From positions 1 to 64,000 of the forward strand of contig NZ_QPIE01000006.1 of assembly GCF_003336205.1 (NCBI RefSeq): a DNA stretch of 64,000 nucleotides, in the 5' to 3' direction. The stretch comes from Chryseobacterium lacus (GTDB taxonomy: Bacteria > Bacteroidota > Bacteroidia > Flavobacteriales > Weeksellaceae). Below are positions 1 through 12,357 of this stretch, piece after piece. The stretch's first letter is position 1. Each line of letters begins with the position of its first letter. The position numbers and the translations under genes were made by a program. A model generated the notes under the pieces. That model searched no databases and was not told where the DNA came from. It worked only from the letters and a program-made list of their open reading frames with translations.

Positions 1-112
1 ATAGTTCTCACAGATTTCACAGATTTTCACAGATGAATTTAAAGGAAAAAGGTAAAAGTAAAAGGCAAAAGGTAAAAGTTTAAAAGGGAAACTGGTTAGT
101 TGTTTAAGGAGC

Positions 113-173
113 AAATTTGCTTATTTGCTTATTTGCTTATTTGCTTATTTGCTTATTTGCTTATTTGCTTATT
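113..173. repeat. Octamer tandem repeat (TTATTTGC)n
   Basis: Six perfect tandem copies of TTATTTGC at 121-168 are preceded by the variant AAATTTGC and followed by TTATTGAC. The same octamer and its variants (TGATTTGC, CGAATTTG, TTATTCGC) recur in every long intergenic gap up to about 15.4 kb. Confidence 0.9.
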
Positions 174-236
174 GACGGTTAATCGATTAATCGGTTAATC
201 GGTAATTGTTTAGAGAAAGTAAATGTGTTCGCTCCG

Positions 237-3042: not shown

Positions 3043-3387
3043 ATGGATTCATATAAGTTTCGGGTTGAGTTTTTAGAAGAGGCAAAAAGCTTTTTGGACG
3101 GACTTGATGAGAAATCAAGGAATAAGGTTATTTACAACATCTGGAAAGCCAGAAGCACAAGTGACAAGGAACTTTTTAAGAAACTACAAGACGAAATCTG
3201 GGAGTTCAGAACAAAATATAACAAATCGTATTATCGCCTTTTTGCGTTTTGGGATAAAACTGACAAAATTGACACAGTGGTTATTTCAACCCACGGCCTG
3301 ATTAAAAAGACGGATAAAATTTCCAGAAGTGAAATCGAAAAGGCAGTTAGATTAAGAGAAAAATATTTTAATATTAAAAAGAAATGA
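3043..3387 (+). CDS. HigB/RelE-superfamily toxin (Gp49-like)
   Basis: A 114-residue protein resembling the phage Gp49-like/HigB branch of RelE mRNA interferases. Typical features are the segment KLQDEIWEFRTKYNKSYYRL, then FAFWDKT and VVISTHGLIKKTDKI, a C-terminal helix, and many Lys and Arg. RelE-family toxins cleave mRNA at the ribosome; which residues cut here cannot be fixed by eye. The toxin comes first and overlaps the antitoxin gene by 4 bp (ATGA at 3384-3387), the toxin-first order typical of HigBA and implying translational coupling. A strong-looking promoter lies 22 bp upstream. Confidence 0.87.
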   Translation: MDSYKFRVEFLEEAKSFLDGLDEKSRNKVIYNIWKARSTSDKELFKKLQDEIWEFRTKYNKSYYRLFAFWDKTDKIDTVVISTHGLIKKTDKISRSEIEKAVRLREKYFNIKKK

Positions 3388-3692
3388 AAACATATAGCTT
3401 AGAGGATTTGACCGACCATTACATCGGAAAGAAAGGAACAGAAAAGCGTGACGAATTTGAAAACGAACTTCGTCTTGACCTGTTAGGACAAGCCATTAAA
3501 CAAGCAAGACTGGAACGTCACCTGACACAACAGGAATTAGGAGACCTCGTTGGTGTGAAAAAGGCACAGATTTCTAAGATTGAGAACAGCACAACGGATG
3601 CGAGGCTTACGACTATTCTGAAAGTGTTTGAAGCTTTAGGAGCAAAAGTGAATTTTAATGTAGAACTCAACAATAAAAGAATAGCATACTGA
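3384..3692 (+). CDS. HigA-like XRE-family antitoxin
   Basis: A 102-residue protein with a Cro/C1-type helix-turn-helix at about residues 33-85 (AIKQARLERHLTQQELGDLV, then KKAQISKIENS and LTTILKVFEALG). It should bind and neutralise the toxin encoded just upstream and repress the shared promoter through the HTH. The start codon overlaps the toxin stop codon (ATGA), so translation is probably coupled. The N-terminal ~30 residues (SLEDLTDHYIGKKGTEKRDE) are typical of HigA partners of Gp49-like toxins. Confidence 0.9.
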   Translation: MKTYSLEDLTDHYIGKKGTEKRDEFENELRLDLLGQAIKQARLERHLTQQELGDLVGVKKAQISKIENSTTDARLTTILKVFEALGAKVNFNVELNNKRIAY

Positions 3693-3796: not shown

Positions 3797-3829
3797 GTAC
3801 AAAAGTGGCTGAAATATTCCCCTCCTCTG
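3797..3829 (+). repeat. R1 element, copy 4 (truncated, joined to R3)
   Basis: The left half of R1 (GTACAAAAGTGGCTGAAATA, then TTCCCCTCCTC) stops inside the palindrome and continues directly as the R3 hairpin. Confidence 0.8.
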
Positions 3830-4214: not shown

Positions 4215-5426
4215 TTATTTCCATTGATTATTGAGAAAACTTCTTAGGTCAATAATCTGAATCCCTTCAACTGAGTTTCCAGAGAAAGTATCCATTGTAA
4301 CCATCATTTTGGGATAATTATCCTTTATCTTTTGCAGATTTCCGAATTCTCTCTCCAGCGTTTTTTCTTCAAGTAAAGTTAAAGCAACCTGAATGTATAG
4401 TTTTTCTCCTTTATTCTCGGCCAGAAAATCTATCTCGTATTCACTAAGTACGCCTGTTTTTACGGTATATCCTTCCACCAAAAGATGATTGTAGACCACA
4501 TTTTCCAATATTTTGCCCCGATCTTCCAGACGATAGCCCCATAAAGCATTGCGGATACCCAAATTCTCAAAATAATATTTTTCCCCTATTTCAAAAAGAC
4601 GCTTTCCTTCTATATCATAGCGCTTTACCTGATGGATCAGAAAAGCATTCGTAAGATGCCGGATATAGAGCTGCACCTGATTAGGGGCAATATTTATTTT
4701 TTGAGACTTCAAAAAGTCGCTGATCTTTTTTGCTGAAAAAATACTCCCTGTATTGGACACTAAAAAGAAAACCAACTGCTCAAGAAACACCGTATTCCGA
4801 ACAGCATACCGATTGATGACATCGCGAAAAACGATGGTAGAATAAATATTTTTAAGATATTCGAAAATAATATGATCCTCAAAAGGAAGGTGCTTTAGAT
4901 AGGGCAATCCACCATACTGAAGATATTTTTCCAACGAATCAGGATCATCTTCTAACTCATGAAACAATAAGAATTCCTGATACGATAAACTATATACCGT
5001 AATCTCAATAGCCCGGCCGCTCAAATGTCCGGAAATATCTCCTGATAAAAGATTCGCATTGCTGCCTGTACAATACAGATCCAGATCAGTATCTAATAAC
5101 AACGACCGAAGGGCAGATTCAAAATCCTGAATATCCTGTATCTCATCTATGAAAACATACGTTTTACTGTTGAGTGATTTGTTTTGCAATACGTATTGAT
5201 GTAGATCTGCTGCATTTTTAATTTCTGAAAAAGCCAAATCTTCTTTATTAATATAAAGGATTTTAGCCCTGGGATGCTCTGCCTGAATAAGCTGCATTAA
5301 CTGAAAGAGGAGATAACTCTTTCCGACCCTTCGCTGTCCGGTAAAACATTTTATCAAACTTTTCCCGATGAAGGGCTGCACCCTGTCAATATAAATCGGC
5401 CGAACAATAGTATCTTGATCAAACAT
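4215..5426 (-). CDS. AAA ATPase with DUF4143-type C-terminus
   Basis: Predicted 403-residue P-loop ATPase. The Walker A motif is GQRRVGKSYLL (near residue 30), Walker B is YVFIDEIQDI, and a TGSNANLLSGD sensor-like segment follows. The C-terminal half matches the DUF4143 layout: a winged-helix region, then an alpha/beta domain with SEYEIDFLAENKGEKLYIQV, which resembles a PD-(D/E)XK core (D, then E-x-K spacing). The biochemical role of this family is unknown; it is common in Bacteroidota accessory regions. I chose the Met at 5426 (MFDQDTIVRPIYIDRVQ), because the 10 residues encoded upstream (PELIITIIIM) look like AT-rich leader. The gene stands alone between repeat blocks. Confidence 0.85.
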   Translation of the reverse strand: MFDQDTIVRPIYIDRVQPFIGKSLIKCFTGQRRVGKSYLLFQLMQLIQAEHPRAKILYINKEDLAFSEIKNAADLHQYVLQNKSLNSKTYVFIDEIQDIQDFESALRSLLLDTDLDLYCTGSNANLLSGDISGHLSGRAIEITVYSLSYQEFLLFHELEDDPDSLEKYLQYGGLPYLKHLPFEDHIIFEYLKNIYSTIVFRDVINRYAVRNTVFLEQLVFFLVSNTGSIFSAKKISDFLKSQKINIAPNQVQLYIRHLTNAFLIHQVKRYDIEGKRLFEIGEKYYFENLGIRNALWGYRLEDRGKILENVVYNHLLVEGYTVKTGVLSEYEIDFLAENKGEKLYIQVALTLLEEKTLEREFGNLQKIKDNYPKMMVTMDTFSGNSVEGIQIIDLRSFLNNQWK

Positions 5427-5542
5427 TATTATAATTGTAATTATAAGTTCAGGCAAATATATAAAAAGTTATCATCATACTTTAAAGTTTGCCTTGATCA
5501 CGAAAGTCGAAGTAAGTGAAAAAGAAATTTGCTGATCCATTG

Positions 5543-5595: not shown

Positions 5596-5670
5596 GTACA
5601 AAAGTGGCTGAAATATTCCCCTCCTCCGGAGGGGTGGCATCCGACGACAGGAGGATGACGGGGTGGTTCC
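5596..5670 (+). repeat. R1 element, copy 6, upstream of the DUF559 gene
   Basis: Full-length R1 of the GACGACAGG subtype that ends GGGGTGGTTCCTC instead of a T-run. It finishes 41 bp before the DUF559 start codon and forms the left half of an inverted pair with the element at 6145. Confidence 0.9.
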
Positions 5671-5711
5671 TCGATGGTGGTTGAAGTTTTCTTATTTTTA
5701 TCCAAAAAAAC

Positions 5712-6134
5712 ATGGAAATAATAACCCATATCCGCGATATTCCCATTCTGAAACCAACGGCACCCCATTTACCTTATAACAAAAATCTTAAAACTTTACT
5801 TTCAGGTAAACGAAAAGCCGGAATTCTCTGTGAAGTGCTCTTTTGGCAGCAAGTTCATAAGAAAAAATTTTACAAGATTGATTTCGACCGGCAAAGAATC
5901 ATCGGAAATTATATTGTGGATTTCTATGTCAAAAATTTAGGGTTGGTGGTTGAAATTGATGGATGGACTCACGAGGATAAAGTTGAGTACGATCGGCAGC
6001 GACAAAGGGAGTTGGAAAGTCTCGGCCTCAAGGTTTTCAGGATTTCCAATTATGACGTATTGCATCATCTGGCCATTGTTATGAAGGAACTGGAGGATTT
6101 TATTATTCTGCATTATGGTGCAAAAGAAACGTAA
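5712..6134 (+). CDS. DUF559-family nuclease-fold protein
   Basis: A 140-residue protein of the DUF559 family, which shares the PD-(D/E)XK/Vsr-like restriction-endonuclease fold. Visible landmarks are CEVLFWQQVHKKKFYKIDFD, then QRIIGNYIVDFY (conserved Asp), then LVVEIDGWTHEDK (E-x-D with the following H) and LKVFRISNYDVL. The acidic residues are in the expected order, so a metal-dependent nuclease is likely, but no DUF559 substrate is well established. The gene is bracketed by repeat elements: R1 copy 6 ends 41 bp upstream, and an opposite-orientation relative begins 11 bp downstream. That arrangement suggests the gene and repeats travel together. The start at 5712 is the first ATG and gives the usual family length. 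Confidence 0.88.
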   Translation: MEIITHIRDIPILKPTAPHLPYNKNLKTLLSGKRKAGILCEVLFWQQVHKKKFYKIDFDRQRIIGNYIVDFYVKNLGLVVEIDGWTHEDKVEYDRQRQRELESLGLKVFRISNYDVLHHLAIVMKELEDFIILHYGAKET

Positions 6135-6144
6135 AGAAAGGTTG

Positions 6145-6198
6145 AACCACCCCACCGCTTCGCTGACGCAAAACGGCACCCCACCGGAGCAGAGGAAT
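6145..6198 (-). repeat. R1-related element, opposite orientation, copy 1
   Basis: On the minus strand it starts ATTCCTC, has CTCCGGTGGGGTG, then GCGTCAGCG, and ends GCGGTGGGGTGGTT. Its two ends match R1, while the middle is different. It lies 11 bp after the DUF559 stop codon. Confidence 0.75.
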
Positions 6199-6253
6199 GT
6201 ACATTTTTAGGTTTTTTGGGGAAAGAGAATGGGCATTATGGAAACGGACGACC

Positions 6254-6308
6254 AACCACCCCACCGTTTCGCTGACGCTAAACGGCGCCCCTCCATGGGA
6301 GGGGAATT
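6254..6308 (-). repeat. R1-related element, opposite orientation, copy 2
   Basis: Ends match R1 (AATTCCCC and GGGGTGGTT on the minus strand). The core has two hairpins: CCCCTCC/GGAGGGG around a 3-nt loop (6288-6304), and CCGTTT...AAACGG. It is the closest relative of the element at 6145. Confidence 0.78.
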
Positions 6309-6335: not shown

Positions 6336-6411
6336 GTACAAAAGAGGCTGAAATATTCCCCTCCTCCGGAGGGGTGGCAGCCGACGAAGGAGGATGACGG
6401 GGTGGTTTTTT
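6336..6411 (+). repeat. R1 element, copy 7
   Basis: Full-length R1, GACGAAGG subtype with GCAGCC. It is the first module of a composite unit that is repeated at 6627. Confidence 0.9.
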
Positions 6412-6828: not shown

Positions 6829-6901
6829 CGAATTTGCTGATTTGCGAATTTGCGAATTTGCTTATTGACGGTTAATCGGTTAATGGGTTAATCGATTAAT
6901 C

Positions 6902-6978
6902 GTACAAAAGTGACCGAAATATTCCCTCCTCTGGAGGGGTGGCATCCGACGACAGGAGGATGACGGGGTGGTTTTTTT
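6902..6978 (+). repeat. R1 element, copy 9 (variant)
   Basis: R1 of the GACGACAGG subtype with a changed palindrome (CCCTCCTCTGGAGGGG) and AAGTGACCGAAATATT at its left end. Confidence 0.85.
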
Positions 6979-7019
6979 GCTGGTGAATTTTAGAAAGAGC
7001 GAATTCGCTTGTTTACAAA

Positions 7020-7074
7020 TTTGCTTTTTTGCTTTTTTGCTTTTTTGCTTTTTTGCCTATTCGCTTATTCGCTT
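7020..7074. repeat. Octamer tract TTTTTTGC / TTATTCGC
   Basis: Four or more tandem TTTTTTGC units, then CTATTCGC and TTATTCGC, all in 8-bp phase. Confidence 0.8.
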
Positions 7075-7150
7075 CTTTACAAATTTGCTTATTGACGGTT
7101 AATCTTTAGAGGAGCGAATTTGCTCCGGTAGCGTCTGGGGTAAGAAGGGA

Positions 7151-11298: not shown

Positions 11299-11350
11299 AA
11301 TTTGCTGATTTGCTGATTTGCTGATTTGCTAATTTGCTAATTTGCTGATG
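11299..11350. repeat. Octamer tract TGATTTGC / TAATTTGC
   Basis: Six tandem 8-bp units in phase, passing into GCTGATGG at the right end. Confidence 0.8.
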
Positions 11351-11411
11351 GCTGGTTAATCGATTAATCGGTTAGTTGTTTAGAAAGAGCGAATTTGCTA
11401 TATGCGACAGT

Positions 11412-11466
11412 GAAAAATCCCGGAATGGTTACCTTTAGAGTTAGGGTAAACGGACCGGGATTTTTG
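11412..11466 (+). repeat. R2 hairpin element, diverged copy
   Basis: GAAAAATCCCGG and CCGGGATTTTTG arms with a changed core (TTACCTTTAGAGTTAGGG). This copy shows that the arms are the conserved part. Confidence 0.78.
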
Positions 11467-11508
11467 CGAATTTGCTGATGGCTGATGGCTGATTGATATT
11501 TTTCTCTT

Positions 11509-11760
11509 GTTCTTTTGTCTTGACACAAAAGAACCAAAAAGTCAAGACTGGATCTTTTTGCTAAAAAATTCCAATTTCTTTTTATTAAAAATCCGAACTT
11601 GCGCGATAAGATGCCCTCGCTTCGGTTTATACTTTAGTGTCGCGCTTCAGACACCGGATTTTTAGCTGTAGTCCATGTATGCTGTGTGTGTAACAAGAAA
11701 TTGAAATTTTTATTAACGCAAAAAGCTCGTAGGTCGTGGCTTTCCTTTGAGCTTTACGTT
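11509..11760. other. Block of three inverted repeats, possible structured element
   Basis: Three hairpin-forming inverted repeats lie in a row. GTTCTTTTGT (11509-11518) and ACAAAAGAAC (11525-11534) pair perfectly around CTTGAC. TAAAAATCCG (11586-11595) and CGGATTTTTA (11655-11664) pair perfectly, and inside them GCGCGA pairs with TCGCGC. AAAGCTC (11722-11728) pairs with GAGCTTT (11749-11755), extended by AACG and CGTT. No ORF of note is present. It could be a noncoding RNA, a mobile repeat or a gene remnant; the sequence alone does not decide. Confidence 0.5.
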
Positions 11761-11787
11761 ATAATTAAGTGGGTGGAAATAACAGAG

Positions 11788-11840
11788 CGGTGGCTGAGGC
11801 TCTCGAAGCCACAGTTGAAAGATCGGTTTGCGTTAATGGT
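11788..11840 (+). repeat. R3 hairpin element, copy 2
   Basis: Shares the hairpin around GAGGCTCTCGA and the tail GATCGGTTTGCGTTAATGG with the copy at 3828. Here it is not joined to R1. Confidence 0.8.
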
Positions 11841-11970
11841 TAAACGATTAATCGGTTAATCTTTAGAGGAGCGAATTTGCTTATTCGCTTATTTACAAAT
11901 TTGCTAATGGCTGATGACTGATGGCTGATAGCTGACTGCTGATAGCTTACAAAGTGAATTTTTCCATCCA

Positions 11971-12046
11971 GTACAAAAGAGGCTGAAATATTCCCCTCCT
12001 CCGGAGGGGTGGCATCCGACGAAGGAGGATGACGGGGTGGTTTTTT
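11971..12046 (+). repeat. R1 element, copy 10
   Basis: Full-length R1 of the GACGAAGG subtype, very close to copies 1 and 2. Confidence 0.9.
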
Positions 12047-12126
12047 ACTTATTTGCTTATTCGCTTATTTACAAATTTGCTGATGGCTGGTTAATCGATT
12101 AATCGGTTAATCGGTGAGAGGAGCGA

Positions 12127-12240
12127 ATTTGCTTATTTGCTTATTTGCTTATTTGCTTATTTACAAATTTGCTGATCGCTGATTGCTGATCGCTGATTGC
12201 TGATGGCTGATGGCTGATTGCTGATGGCCGATTGCTGATT
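12127..12240. repeat. Long mixed octamer tract
   Basis: TTATTTGC units change, through TTACAAATTTGC, into GCTGATCG, GCTGATTG and GCTGATGG units. Two octamer families meet in one tract about 114 bp long. Confidence 0.8.
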
Positions 12241-12357
12241 AATTGGTTAAACATTTAATCGTTTAAACGATGAATCGATTAATCTCAGCTGATGAAAAAT
12301 ATTCCTTGTTTTATCGCAGGATTGTTCGTAAATTTCAGGTGATAAAAGACCGATATT

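Follow-up and report, generated by a model that had tools for sequence, protein, structure and literature searches.

A DUF559 nuclease gene between inverted copies of a dispersed hairpin repeat: a candidate REP-like unit in Chryseobacterium lacus and its relatives

In this report, we describe a small DUF559 nuclease gene of Chryseobacterium lacus that lies between inverted copies of a hairpin repeat, R1, within the window (the whole stretch of DNA analysed, 64,000 nucleotides in length). Our preferred reading, to which we assign a probability of slightly under 0.6, is that the gene and its flanks form a unit of a two-component system like that of the REPs, with DUF559 in the role of the RAYT transposase. 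In the known systems of this kind ('REPtrons'), the gene of the RAYT (TnpA-REP) enzyme is flanked by inverted, dispersed hairpin repeats (PMC3733652, PMC8266576), and the DUF559 gene likewise lies between inverted copies of a hairpin repeat that also occurs elsewhere in the genome. The initial annotation of this DNA had drawn the same comparison, and three features fit it: a resident gene, inverted repeats that point at the gene, and dispersal of the same repeat. The two systems differ in their enzymes, DUF559 being a PD-(D/E)XK/Vsr-type nuclease and RAYT an HUH tyrosine transposase (Y1, PF01797), and also in their repeats, as R1 is bipartite and has no GTAG tag at its ends. No description of DUF559 together with palindromic repeats was found in searches of open-licence papers.

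Anatomy of the unit and of R1

The unit contains DUF559 as its only gene. Its elements and the nearest dispersed repeat are the following:

5712-6134, + strand: DUF559 (PF04480) nuclease gene, 140 aa, 'IDFDRQRIIGNYIVDFY' clade (Pfam E 3.8e-23)
5615-5668, + strand: upstream R1 (ATTCCCC...GGGGTGGTT), with hairpin 1 (CCCCTCC/GGAGGGG), TG and a variable hairpin 2
6145-6198, - strand: R1-like repeat downstream, the inner of two, in inverted orientation and with a decayed hairpin 1, 10 bp past the stop codon
6254-6308, - strand: R1-like repeat downstream, the outer of two, in inverted orientation and with two intact hairpins, 55 bp beyond the inner copy
6355-6407, + strand: dispersed R1 nearest to the unit, among about 13 + copies at 1-15.5 kb

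Direct reading confirmed the annotated arrangement of one R1 upstream and two opposite-orientation relatives downstream of the gene, the second of these indeed 55 bp further on, at 6254-6308; the distance of the upstream copy to the ATG at 5712 is 43 bp and not 41 bp. By eye, the outer ends of the flanking copies do agree (AATTCCCC and GGGGTGGTT), although the inner - copy carries changes, and their middles are unlike one another, as had been noticed. The CGGGGTGGTT tail of the upstream copy faces the gene. When the elements were folded as single-stranded DNA, the outer - copy lay well above chance (z -3.66; 0/200 shuffles as good), and the folds of the upstream R1 (z -0.81) and of the inner - copy, with its damaged first hairpin (z -0.31), were not significant in comparison with shuffles.

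The window protein scores 81.9 bits against PF04480 (gathering score 20.6), and its AlphaFold model has a mean pLDDT of 91.1. The best structural match of this model is the gonococcal DUF559 structure from Neisseria (3hrl, Z 13.8) and the second-best is the catalytic domain of I-Bth0305I (3r3p, Z 11.3), with E. coli Vsr (1cw0, Z 9.1) ranking just below a mitoribosomal protein. On the basis of this model, the protein is predicted to have the Vsr/I-Bth0305I-type nuclease fold; unlike the case of I-Bth0305I, there is no intron at the window unit. Vsr, the very-short-patch-repair endonuclease, is a mismatch-repair enzyme. Across 64 aligned sequences, D70, E81, and H87 are invariant and E41 and D83 nearly so, and we take these five residues to be the predicted acidic/His catalytic core of DUF559. 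In Caulobacter, genetic evidence indicates that VsrA (CCNA_02930), which shares DUF559, is needed for the SOS response in cells without a cytosine methylase, and a role in TG-mismatch repair has been proposed for it (PMC12907096); repeats go unmentioned in the section concerned. The SOS result suggests that at least one DUF559 member acts on DNA in vivo.

R1 follows the layout AATTCCCCTC[C/T] - loop - [G/A]GAGGGGTG - variable stem - CGGGGTG[G/T], and is a bipartite, non-symmetric element of two hairpins, with hairpin 1 outside and the tail inside. The second hairpin stays palindromic while its letters vary freely. In 43 non-redundant versions (out of 119 distinct second hairpins), the two arms match each other at 5.88 of 9 positions, compared with 3.61 when arms are swapped between versions and a maximum of 4.37 in 500 shuffles. 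Because the arms of hairpin 2 pair better than swapped arms, the changes are compensatory and the shape has been kept. CGTC-tagged REPs, a class of palindromic repeats that 'apparently lack a dedicated transposase' (PMC3733652), were considered as a home for R1 and rejected: their strict shape (CGTC tag, 8-9 bp stem, 4-5 nt loop, CCA-like tail) occurs in the 400-base flanks of 2/61, 0/80, and 0/60 loci, the last two sets overlapping.

A repeat search of the window placed 12 + copies of R1 in one family, including the upstream copy of the unit, and one additional + copy near 3820 in a different family, so the annotated figure of 13 copies pointing the other way is about right. A strict R1 pattern finds 10 + copies in the window and 24 copies genome-wide (20 forward, 4 reverse), against a single match for the reversed control pattern. 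In the window, Rfam at gathering scores returned a single tRNA only. Two DUF559 genes were found in this genome, the window gene and a second one located between formyl-transferase (purN-type) and AICARFT/IMPCHase (purH-type) genes, as identified by Pfam; the second gene is likewise bracketed by inverted R1-kind elements, whose second-hairpin letters differ. The sole PF01797 match of the genome, at C27:246107, is outside the window unit.

Several other features of the region were observed. Runs of 8-base units (TTATTTGC, GGTTAATCG-like) occupy much of the DNA between R1 copies, at window positions 89-200, 2598-2950, 6833-7100, and 11300-12280. The neighbours of the unit, at 3043-3692 and 4215-5456, are a Gp49-like/helix-turn-helix pair, presumably toxin-antitoxin-like, and an AAA_14/DUF4143 ATPase. 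A second DUF559 clade (FRRQHP...YIADFYCHK; L063-L071 of the family, and L053) carries another repeat, CTCCCTTTAGGGTYGGGG, in its flanks; neither of the two DUF559 genes found here belongs to that clade, despite the presence of CTCCCTTTAGGGTYGGGG-related stretches at window positions 2228, 6480, 6773, and 11412.

Inverted flanks and repeats of DUF559 genes in other genomes

To compare flanks independently of any motif, each gene was given a score, the best local match between the 350 bases upstream and the reverse complement of the 350 bases downstream, with a threshold of 14. The family set consisted of 60 loci plus the window, taken from small-ORF matches with weak, partial, and one badly broken match omitted; it also took the second unit of this genome, L122 (outside the family), and the long-ORF loci L117-L120, which were chosen because repeats were already visible there (L120 was not scorable). 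Scores of at least 14 were obtained for 51 of 57 stand-alone DUF559 genes in the family, for 13 of 17 in the sample of the phylum Bacteroidota, and for 37 of 64 in a multi-phylum sample made up of the best 80 among more matches (74 could be tested, and 6 lay too close to the end of a contig), the other 27 of the 64 being without an inverted pair at this threshold. The corresponding figure is 2/55 for size-matched genes of the family genomes, controls that suit the family set best because they stem from the window and 19 loci of family genomes, of which some are homologous. Control ORFs inside the family loci reached a maximum of 14.5 among 82, and those inside the multi-phylum loci gave 4/113 at or above the threshold; in three of these four, R1-type elements surround the ORF (a pair of overlapping ORFs in L188 and a single ORF in L241), and the remaining one is a nuclease gene of PF13366 (L228:415-786, Pfam). 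The expectation that DUF559 genes of other genomes would carry an excess of flanking R1-like repeats was therefore borne out, with a strong excess over controls. Decay of the inner downstream copy leaves the window unit itself with a score of only 14.5, level with the top of the 82 control ORFs; the excess is carried by the gene family, not by the window unit alone.

The same layout occurs in at least eight phyla (taxa by record title). DUF559 domains in long open frames reached the threshold in 0/3 cases in the family, 3/5 in the phylum, and 0/10 in the multi-phylum sample. In Alphaproteobacteria (30 loci, of many more matches in the class), 11 of the 29 testable loci scored at least 14, compared with 14.5% of mismatched pairs, and 18 had no inverted pair. 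Inverted bracketing of DUF559 is thus widespread yet not universal. Searches for relatives in phages and plasmids gave only matches below 60% identity; among four plasmid-collection records inspected, one from Neisseria gonorrhoeae scored 16 and the other three at most 14.5. In the flanks of the gonococcal DUF559 gene (L303), CCCTCTCCC/GGGAGAGGG-like palindromes occur upstream and downstream, some of them as direct repeats, and by eye about 100 bases around it stand in direct repeat.

Within the clade of the window gene, recognised copies stand on both sides in 35 of 49 units, and in 29 of these 35 the nearest copy on each side lies tail-first toward the gene (p 1e-12 on the assumption of independent units); the remaining six break the rule.

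The type of repeat also follows the nuclease. Outside the family, where 60 of 105 tested genes have an inverted pair, the two commonest types are CCCCTCC/GGAGGGG and CCCTCTCC/GGAGAGGG. On the nuclease tree, the GGAGGGG and GGAGAGGG types require 5 changes, and 0/2000 shuffles do as well; the GGAGGGG type accompanies 21/29 proteins with [RK]K[FY]RRQHS[VI]G versus 3/31 others (p 8e-7), p values that are generous because the counts are of sequences rather than of independent events. The tree test left out L307-L336, which overlap with the multi-phylum set, and the protein trees are without support values. By record title, carriers of the GGAGGGG type include Bacteroidota, Betaproteobacteria, Acidobacteria, Nitrospirae/Thermodesulfovibrio, and Akkermansiaceae. 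This match of clade and repeat, drawn from sequence comparison, is the strongest hint of a physical partnership between nuclease and repeat.

Furthermore, the gene and the repeat occur together at the level of whole genomes. Among 148 family genomes, R1 elements are present in 45/47 with a gene of the clade (membership judged by motif) versus 21/101 without (p 3e-19), and the link persists under within-genus permutation (p 5e-5, 87 genomes). At least three R1 copies were counted in 41/47 and 15/101, respectively. The association is partly built in, because each unit brings its own R1 copies, but the excess in gene-bearing genomes remains after two copies are subtracted (p 3e-13). The clade gene is present in 1-2 copies per genome among the genomes compared. 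Both gene-bearing genomes without R1 have short frames (111 and 89 aa), as do two genomes with R1 (G104, 102 aa; G067, 114 aa with a stop). The 21 gene-less genomes with R1 have up to 14 copies; for them, loss of the gene or a different driver has to be assumed.

A RAYT was considered as an alternative driver of R1 and rejected. PF01797, the HUH transposase family, is present in 100 of the 148 genomes, and R1 occurs in 58 of these 100 versus 8/48 others (p 1.5e-6), a weaker association than that with DUF559. The DUF559 link holds with and without PF01797, four genomes (G027, G061, G079, and G125) have the DUF559 gene and repeats with no PF01797 match, and a weak association of PF01797 with R1 remains among gene-less genomes (p 0.013).

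Genomic sites, mobility, and competing explanations

Units of the clade occupy a small number of places, namely the neighbourhood of hutU (three arrangements), the interval between purN- and purH-type genes, and type I restriction genes. At one of the latter (L117, G036:C11), the DUF559 open frame crosses the downstream repeat in frame into a specificity-subunit domain (PF01420), and the repeat may therefore be translated; L118-L120 were placed at type I restriction genes by reading only. On the protein tree, the units of each site cluster together, with several genera per site and patchy presence, and one inversion and two copies at an unassigned location (L098, L109) are nested in the hutU 5' group. 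The inversion is the product that recombination between inverted flanks would give. Moves between sites are few on the tree, which suggests that the unit is not very mobile, and up to 10 DUF559 matches occur in some genomes. Like RAYT/REP pairs or homing genes, DUF559 units occupy few sites and are patchily absent from them, and they do not behave like busy transposons in the genomes compared. Repeated segments of Legionella that contain DUF559 or, separately, GIY-YIG are hotspots of mutation and recombination (PMC12308824); those DUF559 segments come with a transposase, which the window unit lacks, and no link to palindromes is described in the passages on them.

The initial annotation had looked to empty sites for a test, expecting strains without the gene to lack both arms as well. 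Around hutU, gene-free relatives have collinear flanks, and the outcome at six junctions was divided. In G099, AATTCCCATCACATGGAGGGGAATT is left where relatives have about 515-525 bases, and G119 and G126 have similar short palindromes; in these three, the sequence reads as if the outer tips of both repeats had fused. In the other three (G035, G051, and G123), there is no trace of the unit, and the missing stretch exceeds it in length by about 150 bases or more. Some gene-free hutU sites may be deletion scars and others sites that were never occupied. No clean insertion of a solo R1 was found in the comparisons, which gave only a tandem-copy difference (L119/L120) and one near-fit. At two sites viewed closely, solo repeats vary between congeneric species, but the intergenic regions turn over too rapidly for the comparison.

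Under the REP-like reading, the system would consist of a resident DUF559 gene bracketed by inverted bipartite hairpin repeats, with solo copies elsewhere in the genome. The nuclease would recognise the repeat, probably through its hairpins (single-stranded or as a cruciform) together with the conserved tail on the gene side; such recognition is supported by the match between nuclease clade and repeat type. It would then nick or cut at the repeat, and repair of the break would copy the repeat to new sites, slowly, over evolutionary time. Repair may also help to retain or re-establish the bracketed gene. In this way, DUF559 may spread or maintain the repeats, as the initial annotation had suggested.

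The main rival is a homing-type selfish nuclease, in which DUF559 would cleave the gene-free host site (hutU, purN-purH) and be copied in by repair, the repeats serving only as borders or regulatory hairpins. We consider this unlikely, although several observations speak for it: the second-best fold match is the catalytic domain of a homing endonuclease, I-Bth0305I; the units group by site on the protein tree (purN-purH, hutU 5' side, hutU 3' side, type I restriction); the sites are fixed, with patchy presence across several genera and gene-free relatives at hutU; and one unit (L092) lies between remnants of the hutU 3' end. Such remnants are, however, also present at loci without DUF559 (L124, L129, and L141), and homing leaves unexplained both the dispersed solo repeats that rise with the gene and the tracking of nuclease clade by repeat type across phyla. 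The REP-like and homing readings may both hold. With regard to the hutU region itself, the last 25-40 codons of the gene recur as remnants downstream of an intact copy at all four of these loci, adjoining DUF559 or other small genes, and the 3' end of hutU resembles a hotspot of repeated insertion.

It is improbable that the hairpins are simply insulators, serving as bidirectional terminators or as structures at mRNA ends that protect a solitary gene of horizontal origin, and that the nuclease never acts on them. Hairpins do stand on both sides, and REPs elsewhere have been proposed to act in termination and mRNA stability (PMC3733652). However, the 2/55 size-matched genes show that genes of the family genomes are rarely bracketed in this way, the elements are non-symmetric and obey one orientation rule in 29/35 units, and the repeat type tracks the nuclease clade across phyla. 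Chance landing in DNA with many repeats and few genes, of which the first 15 kb of the window are an example, would suit a unit that sits inside a dense R1 cluster and alone scores no better than the best control ORF, but it is highly improbable and largely refuted by the large excess over controls and by the many units elsewhere that lie between housekeeping genes with flanking repeats of their own.

Other small nucleases and wider meaning

Two other groups of small nuclease genes were scored in Bacteroidota. For PF13366 (PDDEXK_3, GxxExxY) genes (L367-L396), 14/30 scored at least 14, compared with 4.75% of mismatched pairs, and the flanks are mostly inverted CCACAGAG-type repeats, also given as AACCACAGAGGNCACAGAG-type. 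For small GIY-YIG genes (L397-L426), the figure is 14 of the 27 testable among 30, compared with 3.25% of mismatched pairs; several have inverted palindromes of the CTGAACTTGTTTCAG (TCATGCTGAACTTGTTTCAGCATC) or CTGAGCTTGTCGAAG type, and a few of the pairs are terminator-like.

A broader proposal, which we offer tentatively, is that small stand-alone nucleases (DUF559, PDDEXK_3/GxxExxY, and GIY-YIG) could each drive their own class of dispersed palindromes across bacteria, and could supply the missing enzymes for many orphan intergenic palindromes (GGAGGGG, GGGAGAGGG, CCACAGAG, and CTGAACTTGTTTCAG types). If confirmed, bracketing by its own palindrome would be a general habit of the small stand-alone nuclease. 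Dispersed palindromic repeats are widespread in bacteria, and several classes, such as the CGTC REPs, have no known enzyme (PMC3733652). A testable nuclease partner would give DUF559 a role and carry the REP/RAYT idea over to an enzyme with an unrelated fold. The origin of orphan repeats would also become a bench question, accessible with a 140-residue protein and a 55-base oligonucleotide. Taken as a whole, the analysis suggests that one type of partnership, that of a DNA-cutting enzyme with repeats scattered over the genome, has been overlooked.
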